From positions 1 through 10,233 of the forward strand of contig CAMPJN010000111.1 in NCBI GenBank assembly GCA_946886875.1: a stretch of 10,233 nt of DNA. Reading direction: 5' to 3'. Shown piece after piece: positions 1 through 2,037 of the stretch. The translations under genes were made by a program, and so were the position numbers. The stretch comes from an uncultured Pseudomonas sp. GTDB lineage: Bacteria > Pseudomonadota > Gammaproteobacteria > Pseudomonadales > Pseudomonadaceae. The notes beneath the pieces are model-generated. The model searched no databases, was not told where the DNA came from, and was given only the letters and a program-made list of their open reading frames with translations. Position 1 is the first letter of the stretch, and each line of letters begins with the position of its first letter.

Positions 1-1878
1 TGCTGGTACCGATGCTGCTCGACCCCTTGGGCGTGCACTGGATGCTGCCGGCCTGGCTGCAATTCGCCCTGGCCACCCCGGTGCAGTTCGGCCTCGGCGC
101 ACGCTTCTACCGTGCCGGCTGGCGTGCTTTGCTGGCCCGCAGCGGCAATATGGATCAACTGGTGGCTATCGGCACCAGCGCCGGTTATGGCCTGAGCCTC
201 TATCAATGGGCGATCACCCCGAGCGGCGGCATGCCCCATCTATATTTCGAAACATCGGCAGTGATCATCACCCTGATCCTGCTCGGCAAATACCTGGAAA
301 GCCGGGCCAAACGCCAGACCACCAGCGCCATACGCGCGCTGCAAGCCCTGCGCCCGGATCAAGCGCTACGCCTGAAGAATGGTCAGGAGCAACTGGTGGC
401 CCTCAACGCCCTGGTCCTGGGCGATCAGGTGGTGGTCAAACCGGGCGAACGCTTCCCGGTCGACGGCCAGGTGCTGGAAGGCCGCAGCCATGCCGACGAA
501 GCCCTGATCAGTGGCGAAAGCCTGCCGCAAGCCAAACAGCCGGGCGACAAGGTCACCGCCGGCGCGATCAACGGCGAAGGCCGCCTGCTGGTGGAAACCA
601 CCGCCCTGGGTGCGGAAACCGTGCTGGCGAAGATCATTCGCCTGGTCGAAGACGCCCAGGCGGCCAAGGCGCCGATCCAGAAACTGGTGGATAAGGTCAG
701 CCAGGTGTTCGTCCCGACCGTATTGCTGCTCGCCCTGGCCACCCTGCTGACCTGGCTGATGCTTGGCGCCCCGGCGGAAACCGCCCTGCTCAATGCCGTG
801 GCGGTACTGGTGATCGCCTGCCCCTGCGCCCTCGGCCTGGCCACCCCGACCGCGATCATGGCCGGCACCGGCGTGGCCGCGCGCCACGGCATCCTGATCA
901 AGGACGCCAGCGCCCTGGAAGTCGCCCATGGCGTGACCGCGGTAGCCTTCGACAAGACCGGCACCCTGACCTCCGGCAGCCCGCGGATCGCCCACCTCAG
1001 CGCCGTCGATGGCGACAACGAGACACTGCTGCAACTGGCCGGTGCCCTGCAACGCGGCAGCGAGCACCCGCTGGCCAAGGCGGTACTGGATGCCTGCAGC
1101 GAACGGCAGCTGCAACTTCCCGAAGTCAGCGACAGCCAGGCCCTGGCCGGACGCGGCATCGCCGGGCAGATCGGCGAACGGCAACTGGCCCTGGGCAACA
1201 AACGCATGCTCGAAGAACACTGGCTGCAGAATCAAGCCTTGGTCGCCGACGCCCTGGCCTGGGAGTCCGAGGGCCGCACTCTGTCCTGGCTGATCGAGTT
1301 GGCACCCAGCCCACGGATGCTCGGCCTGTTCGCCTTCGGCGATACGCTCAAACCCGGCGCCGCCGAAGCCGTCGCCCAGCTCAAGGCGCTGGGTATCCGC
1401 AGCCATCTGATCAGCGGCGACAACAAGGGCAGCGCCAATGCCGTGGCCAGCGCCCTGCAGATCGATTCGGTACATGCCGAAGTGCTGCCGGCGGACAAAG
1501 CCGCGATCATCGCCGAACTGAAACAGGATGCACGGGTGGCCATGGTCGGCGACGGCATCAACGACGCTCCGGCGCTGGCCGCCGCCGATGTCGGCATCGC
1601 CATGGGCAGCGGCACCGATGTCGCCATGCACGCCGCCGCGCATCAGGGTGATGCCGGCGGCGCTGGAGATCAGCAGACGCACCTACGACAAGATTCGCCA
1701 GAACCTGTTCTGGGCCTTTATCTACAACCTGATCGGCATCCCGCTGGCCGCCATCGGCCTGCTCAACCCGATGATCGCCGGCGCGGCCATGGCGGCGTCG
1801 AGCCTGTGCGTGGTGAGCAATGCCCTGCTGCTGAAACGTTGGAAGCCGAAGAACCCGGAGAGCTCGGAAACTCTGTAG
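1..1878 (+). pseudogene. copA: Cu(I)-exporting P-type ATPase CopA, 5' partial and frame-disrupted
   Basis: CopA is a P1B-type ATPase that pumps Cu(I) out of the cytoplasm across the inner membrane. The frame is open from the left edge (first full codon at base 3), so the metal-binding N-terminus and first helices lie outside. Numbering from the ATG at 12, I see the actuator-domain loop SGES (168-171), the membrane copper site CPC (270-272) with GLATPTA after it, the phosphorylation motif DKTGT (D314, base 951), the SEHP nucleotide-binding motif (H352-P353) and GDGINDAP (513-520). The frame stays normal through GTDVAMHAA (to base 1637) and is then lost. The expected continuation, PAALEIS through helices M7 and M8 with MAASS and the end KRWKP, is read in the next frame from 1654 to the TAG at 1876-1878. 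The original frame instead runs with unrelated residues to 2018. An 18-base inversion plus about 20 missing bases explains the break (1632-1661). As written, the product lacks both final helices and should not transport copper. The rest shows no decay, so the lesion is recent or an assembly error. Confidence 0.9.
1632..1661. other. micro-inversion plus deletion inside copA
   Basis: Bases 1638-1655, flanked by GCCGCC (1632-1637) and its complement GGCGGC (1656-1661), encode GITLMR when read on the minus strand. With the flanks, the minus strand gives AAGITLMRG. That is the sequence CopA proteins carry on the sense strand right after GTDVAM-x-AA. Turning the 18 bases around restores AAGITLMRG in the upstream frame. 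The usual five or so residues before PAALEIS are then still absent, a net loss of about 20 bases, which accounts for the frame change. The inverted text is directly visible; the ancestral order and the deletion size are inferred from the family consensus. Confidence 0.85.
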
Positions 1879-1939
1879 CCAGGATGCAATCCGGGGAGCG
1901 GTTGCATAGGCGCCGATTTCCCCAGATTGCATCCGGGCT
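1877..1939. repeat. imperfect inverted repeat, REP-like, at the copA 3' end
   Basis: Bases 1877-1897 (containing GGATGCAATCCGGGGA) match the reverse complement of 1919-1939 at 19 of 21 positions, with a 21-base spacer. Each arm carries the core GGATGCAATC, so the pair could fold into a long hairpin in RNA or single-stranded DNA. Elements of the form AGCCCGGATGCAATC recur in Pseudomonas chromosomes as far as I know, but copy number cannot be judged from one window. The left arm begins inside the TAG stop of the copA C-terminal frame (1876-1878). It could protect the 3' end of the transcript or lower read-through into cueR. Confidence 0.7.
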
Positions 1940-1955
1940 TCGGGACGACATATTC

Positions 1956-2014
1956 GCAGGAGCGGCCTTGGCCACGATCCGCGTCGCCCGCATCGCGGAC
2001 AAGTCCGCTCCTAC
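1956..2014. repeat. REP doublet (REPIN-type) between copA and cueR
   Basis: Two inverted REP units face each other. The left unit (1956-1977) starts GCAGGAGCGGCCTTGGCCAC. The right unit (1993-2014), read on the minus strand, starts GTAGGAGCGGACTTGTCCGC. They agree at 18 of 22 positions, and each has its own small palindrome (GGCC-TT-GGCC and GGAC-TT-GTCC). The right unit keeps the GTAG foot typical of REPs mobilised by RAYT tyrosine transposases; the left unit has GCAG. A 15-base spacer separates them. This is the usual REPIN layout of fluorescent and related pseudomonads. It ends 23 bases before the cueR start, next to its ribosome binding site. Confidence 0.85.
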
Positions 2015-2037
2015 ATAGACATAGTTGGGAGATATCG

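Follow-up and report, generated by a model that had tools for sequence, protein, structure and literature searches.

In a 10,233-nt stretch of DNA from an uncultured Pseudomonas sp. (the window, analysed over its whole length), we describe a copper-exporter gene, copA, in which a short segment runs backwards, 20 nt are missing and the reading frame is broken, a form absent from the relatives searched. The reading that we favour, with a probability of roughly 0.5, is that a single short template switch between strands recently inactivated copA. That the change is a real event, through either template switching or break repair, we hold with moderate confidence. Template-switch mutations, spacer inversions and microinversions have all been described, and the copA event adds one more example to a kind of mutation already known. 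If real, it would provide an unusually legible bacterial switch-and-return, in which inversion and deletion arise from one event in a protein gene, and ordinary annotation would label it a frameshift, masking its cause. If it is an artefact, it would indicate that an assembled consensus can hold such a chimera and resemble a pseudogene.

Sequences compared

The DNA comparisons use 37 copA loci of relatives, retained from 44 with a BLAST match; five loci without the motif were left out, as were L006 and L007, which overlap L001 and L002. Three pairs (L014/L107, L104/L105 and L119/L120) have identical sequence at the site. The 37 relatives are partly redundant, and comparisons with them are therefore not independent tests. 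One of them, L095, serves as proxy ancestor, its locus being about 80% identical to the window. At the protein level, 120 homologues were listed out of 7997 scored, and those with a named source include many from Pseudomonas. The closest protein is denoted P0002.

The disrupted copA gene

Starting at position 3, the copA frame runs open to a stop at 2018, departing from CopA after about 1640, while the rest of CopA (PAALEISRR...SSETL) is encoded in another frame, with its stop at 1876-1878. The gene and the joints within it comprise the following features:

3..1638, plus strand: copA, original-frame part, cut by the window start and ending in the P domain (open frame, TIGR01511 and P0002 match)
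1632..1638, plus strand: left joint; the upright sequence may end anywhere from 1633 to 1638, with 5-nt microhomology (1625-1668 against L095)
1634..1662 at its widest (29 nt) and 1639-1651 at its narrowest, minus strand: inverted copy, in which minus-strand 1638-1655 encodes GITLMR
1652..1663, plus strand: right joint; the upright sequence may resume anywhere from 1652 to 1663, with 11-nt microhomology (against L095)
1640..2018, plus strand: aberrant tail, read by the original copA frame past the joint (open frame)
1654..1878, plus strand: copA, out-of-frame C-terminal part with the last two membrane helices (74 codons and a stop)

The break is equally visible in profile searches, where the NCBIfam model TIGR01511 is split, one frame matching it as far as position 465 of 542 and the other over positions 474-542. 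The catalytic and C-terminal membrane parts, which a functional CopA-type copper P-type ATPase has in one frame, are divided between two frames in the window and united in P0002. Both the YN and the MxxSS motifs fall in the out-of-frame part, and both lie within the portion of P0002 that aligns with the solved CopA structure 3j09. We take these motifs to be located in the last two membrane helices of CopA and to bind copper. Judged from the encoded protein, copper transport would have been lost through the frameshift. The aberrant tail (residues 535-671) returned 1027 candidates from a set of 5.8 billion proteins, none of them at E <= 10.

The inverted segment and its joints

An earlier note on this DNA had proposed that the conserved GITLMR is encoded backwards within copA, flanked by a short inverted repeat, and that about 20 bases have gone from the same place. 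Each of these points was borne out. The reverse complement of 1638-1655, read directly, encodes GITLMR; the two halves of the 6-bp inverted repeat, GCCGCC and GGCGGC, occupy 1632-1637 and 1656-1661; and parses against relatives put the net loss at 20 nt, the absent bases being those that the relatives carry ahead of the right joint. The inverted stretch exceeds the extent given in that note. Its exact inverted match to upright copA reaches 29 nt (1634-1662) in 8 of the 37 relatives (L001, L094, L095, L100, L106, L109, L111 and L116) and 18-28 nt in another 26, and no exact match within the bounds of the script was obtained in three (L098, L117 and L019). A genus-level BLAST search, which covered two genomes (G002 and G001), gave in both a main copA match together with a short opposite-strand piece starting at query position 255, that is, window position 1634.

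A single inverted copy taken from L095 yields window 1625-1668 (44 nt) exactly, as it does from no other of the 37 relatives, and a net loss of 20 is the sole outcome of the unfiltered L095 parse. Shorter cores of 38 and 34 nt are reproduced from 6 and 7 of the 37 relatives, respectively; these counts keep parses with a net loss of 20 only, and some parses with a net change of 5 or -14 stemmed from very short flanks. The loss of 20 nt also separates the change from a pure microinversion, which leaves length unchanged. The segment is itself a near-palindrome in 30 of the 37 relatives, with 6-nt arms and a 3-nt centre, and for this reason few bases tell its inverted form from its upright form.

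Inverted copy against linear alignment

Linear and inverted-copy alignments were compared under one simple scoring scheme, which carries no switch penalty, so that every comparison gains some points. At the site, the inverted-copy parse outscores the linear alignment by 35-47 points in all 37 relatives. Other 95-nt stretches of the same copA, used as a control, gave a maximum gain of 24 and a mean of 8.5, with 6 of 567 reaching 20; comparisons of relative against relative at the same site (666 in all) gave a maximum of 16 and a mean of 5.9. The locus combines two marks of a short template switch, an exact reverse-complement copy of nearby sequence and a switch-and-return parse that beats linear alignment beyond the controls. 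The proposal that one template switch accounts for both the backwards segment and the 20-nt loss agrees with this outcome, requiring two switches with 5 and 11 nt of microhomology against L095.

The linear alignment with L095 can nevertheless be read as three core substitutions, a 21-nt gap and a single inserted base, as if several separate mutations had accumulated. One such series would combine clustered substitutions with a deletion and the gain of one base; another would begin with a full inversion across the 11-nt arms, after which bases between short direct repeats were deleted. Because the segment contains a near-palindrome, such a history is cheaper than it first appears. It would still require at least three events for what a single inverted copy predicts in full, its alignment trails by the 35-47 points given above, and P0002 offers no intermediate; we consider it very unlikely.

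Inverted-repeat arms and folding

It had been predicted that the return site, 1652-1661, would also occur in the ancestor. The prediction is upheld by the 18 of 37 relatives that carry the 10-nt right arm. Both 10-nt arms are found in 9 of the 37 and both 11-nt arms in 3. The longest perfect arm at the site measures 10-11 nt in 10 relatives and only 6-7 nt in 23; elsewhere in the copA of these relatives, arms of at least 10 nt occur in 6 of 618 stretches of 80 nt. As single-stranded DNA, the site is predicted to fold strongly (-19.2 and -20.3 kcal/mol, with z of -2.15 and -2.58). The predicted folds vary by relative, with pairing of the long arms in L095 and L001 and of an inner hairpin in L109 and L100. 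It is conceivable that the GITLMR-to-VPAALE codons of Pseudomonas copA form competing hairpins and constitute a recurrent template-switch hotspot at which copper export is lost in nature, a conjecture to which we attach very little probability.

Ancestral state and age

The upright segment is ancestral in its distribution: it is in frame in all 37 loci with DNA and in 12 of 12 loci of a second, partly overlapping set. GITLMRGD is present in 119 of the 120 listed homologues, and the remaining one differs by a single residue. The derived DNA, searched as an exact pattern, was found in none of 398 family genomes and in no viral contig. Close relatives sharing the derived text with an intact frame, which the earlier note had named as evidence against a recent switch, were likewise absent from the 398 family genomes and the 120 listed homologues. 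Plasmid records with a match numbered 4508, with 8 in the 90-95% identity band, and the 20 matches listed reach at most 80.8% identity.

This distribution bears on the possibility that the segment is a reversible intragenic inverton that toggles copA on and off. An intragenic inverton switches back and forth between two orientations, both of them present at equal length. The inverted repeats that flank the segment, and the effect of its inversion on the frame, would suit such an element. Against it, the derived state is seen in 0 of the 398 genomes, no recombinase was recognised among the window genes, and a search of the rest of the window for 18 nt taken from the lost bases, tolerating up to 3 mismatches, found no copy. 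Because 20 nt have been lost, flipping the segment back would not restore the relatives' sequence, and we regard a reversible element as extremely improbable.

P0002 is intact and bears on the age of the change. Upstream of the junction it is identical to the window at 523 of 544 residues (96%), and all 21 differences lie within residues 7-258 (window 3-776); from residue 259 to 544 (286 residues; window 777-1634) identity is complete, and the last 74 residues of P0002, from PAALE to the end, are all identical to the out-of-frame part. The next three relatives, P0003-P0005, differ in both halves. The abrupt jump at codon 258 suggests that one of the two records reflects recombination or an assembly of mixed strains. 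Since P0002 is intact and identical on both sides of the junction, the event is either younger than the split from P0002 or not biological. It is private to the window, and recent or artefactual.

An artefact would have arisen during library preparation or assembly, if a single-stranded end had paired at the inverted repeat in vitro and been extended, and the resulting chimera had entered a consensus of thin coverage. The privacy of the change, the identity of the residues on both sides to intact P0002 and the strong single-stranded hairpin at the site are all in keeping with such an origin, and mixed-strain assembly could also account for the mosaic identity between copA and P0002. Chimeric reads in which the sequence between inverted repeats is reverse-complemented are moreover known from sonicated libraries, according to the available text of PMC10908179. 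That same text, however, reports such reads as low-frequency calls, and a chimera would here have to form two joints no more than about 30 nt apart and then pick up the correct flank again. No further frame break was noticed in the window, as judged by open frames, NCBIfam and Pfam. On balance we consider an artefact possible, though a good deal less probable than a real event.

Mechanism

Under a template switch, synthesis would have stalled, in the cell and during replication, within the imperfect inverted repeat across the GITLMR codons. The growing end would then have shifted to the other parental strand, copied 13-29 nt of it in reverse and overshot by about 20 nt on rejoining its original template, probably because it left through one inverted-repeat partner and came back through another. 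Such a sequence of steps would turn over a short stretch, make the gene 20 nt shorter and shift the reading frame, so that the last two membrane helices fall outside it.

The geometry departs in one respect from what had been proposed, namely a switch within one strand. Intrastrand switching, in which the nascent strand folds back, calls for a copied source behind the switch point. In the L095 parse, 26 nt of the source lie ahead of the left switch point, and the source is also ahead of the right switch point when viewed from the other strand. Fold-back would not work here, because a nascent strand cannot copy sequence that has not yet been made; with the source ahead of both switch points, the template would have been the other parental strand, or else the event would be one of break repair.

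Break repair would make the change a real mutation made in the repair of a double-strand break in the segment, through microhomology-mediated break-induced replication and not through a switch at the fork. This route has been proposed for microinversions with short or imperfect repeats in the portion of PMC8755829 at hand, and it would fit the loss of bases and the left microhomology of just 5 nt. The 11-nt homology at the right joint, by contrast, suffices for switching. The sequence data do not separate break repair from fork switching; we judge the former unlikely, and template switching between parental strands remains our preferred reading.

Relation to known systems

Events of similar geometry have been documented in several settings. 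The available part of PMC8604942 attributes the inversion of inverted-repeat spacers in yeast coding genes to interstrand template switching; there, as proposed for copA, a short segment between arms is flipped inside coding sequence by two switches that use the other strand as template. The yeast spacers described in that part give substitutions of 2-5 bp and up to two amino-acid changes, whereas the copA change turns over as many as 29 nt, removes 20 nt and breaks the frame. Template-switch mutations and loop inversions in rRNA genes, with cases in Actinobacteria and Firmicutes, are treated in PMC8794818, the accessible text of which holds that a loop inverted in place points to an interstrand mechanism. 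These loops share with copA an inversion explained by a single switch-and-return. The copA event differs from them in affecting a protein gene and in the different partners proposed for departure and return, so that length changes.

In bacteria, quasipalindrome-associated mutation in E. coli (PMC7202029) involves, as the copA event would, a replication template switch at an imperfect inverted repeat; in the reporters covered by the available text the events are intramolecular and perfect the palindrome, in contrast to the in-place inversion with loss seen in copA. Human-chimpanzee microinversions (PMC8755829) resemble the copA segment in size, at 17-33 nt, and in their flanking inverted repeats, but are, in the sections at hand, mostly pure inversions, while copA loses bases. 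Spontaneous Salmonella inversions with short inverted repeats at their ends are also on record in what is available of PMC3411829. Among the matches listed from the literature searched, with subscription papers mostly outside it, none was a survey of such events across the coding genes of bacterial genomes.

Genomic surroundings

Besides copA, the window encodes cueR (TIGR02044 above cut-off), an ABC ATPase (Pfam ABC_tran), a PAS/GGDEF/EAL protein, glyA and a CobW-type protein truncated at the window edge. The ABC ATPase is presumably of the EttA type. An Rfam scan of the window returned nothing at gathering score.

Three further features of the copA region were recorded. An open frame of 438 aa lies antisense to copA (366-1682, minus strand) and spans the inversion; it is probably a by-product of GC-rich codon usage. 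Just after copA, an inverted repeat at 1877-1939 has 21-nt arms that are 90% complementary, and similar stretches occur at several places in genome G308 and at one in G002, with none in G001; it looks like a dispersed intergenic repeat. A second inverted repeat, at 1958-2012 between copA and cueR, has 24-nt arms that are 83% complementary and, we presume, resembles the REP elements of Pseudomonas.
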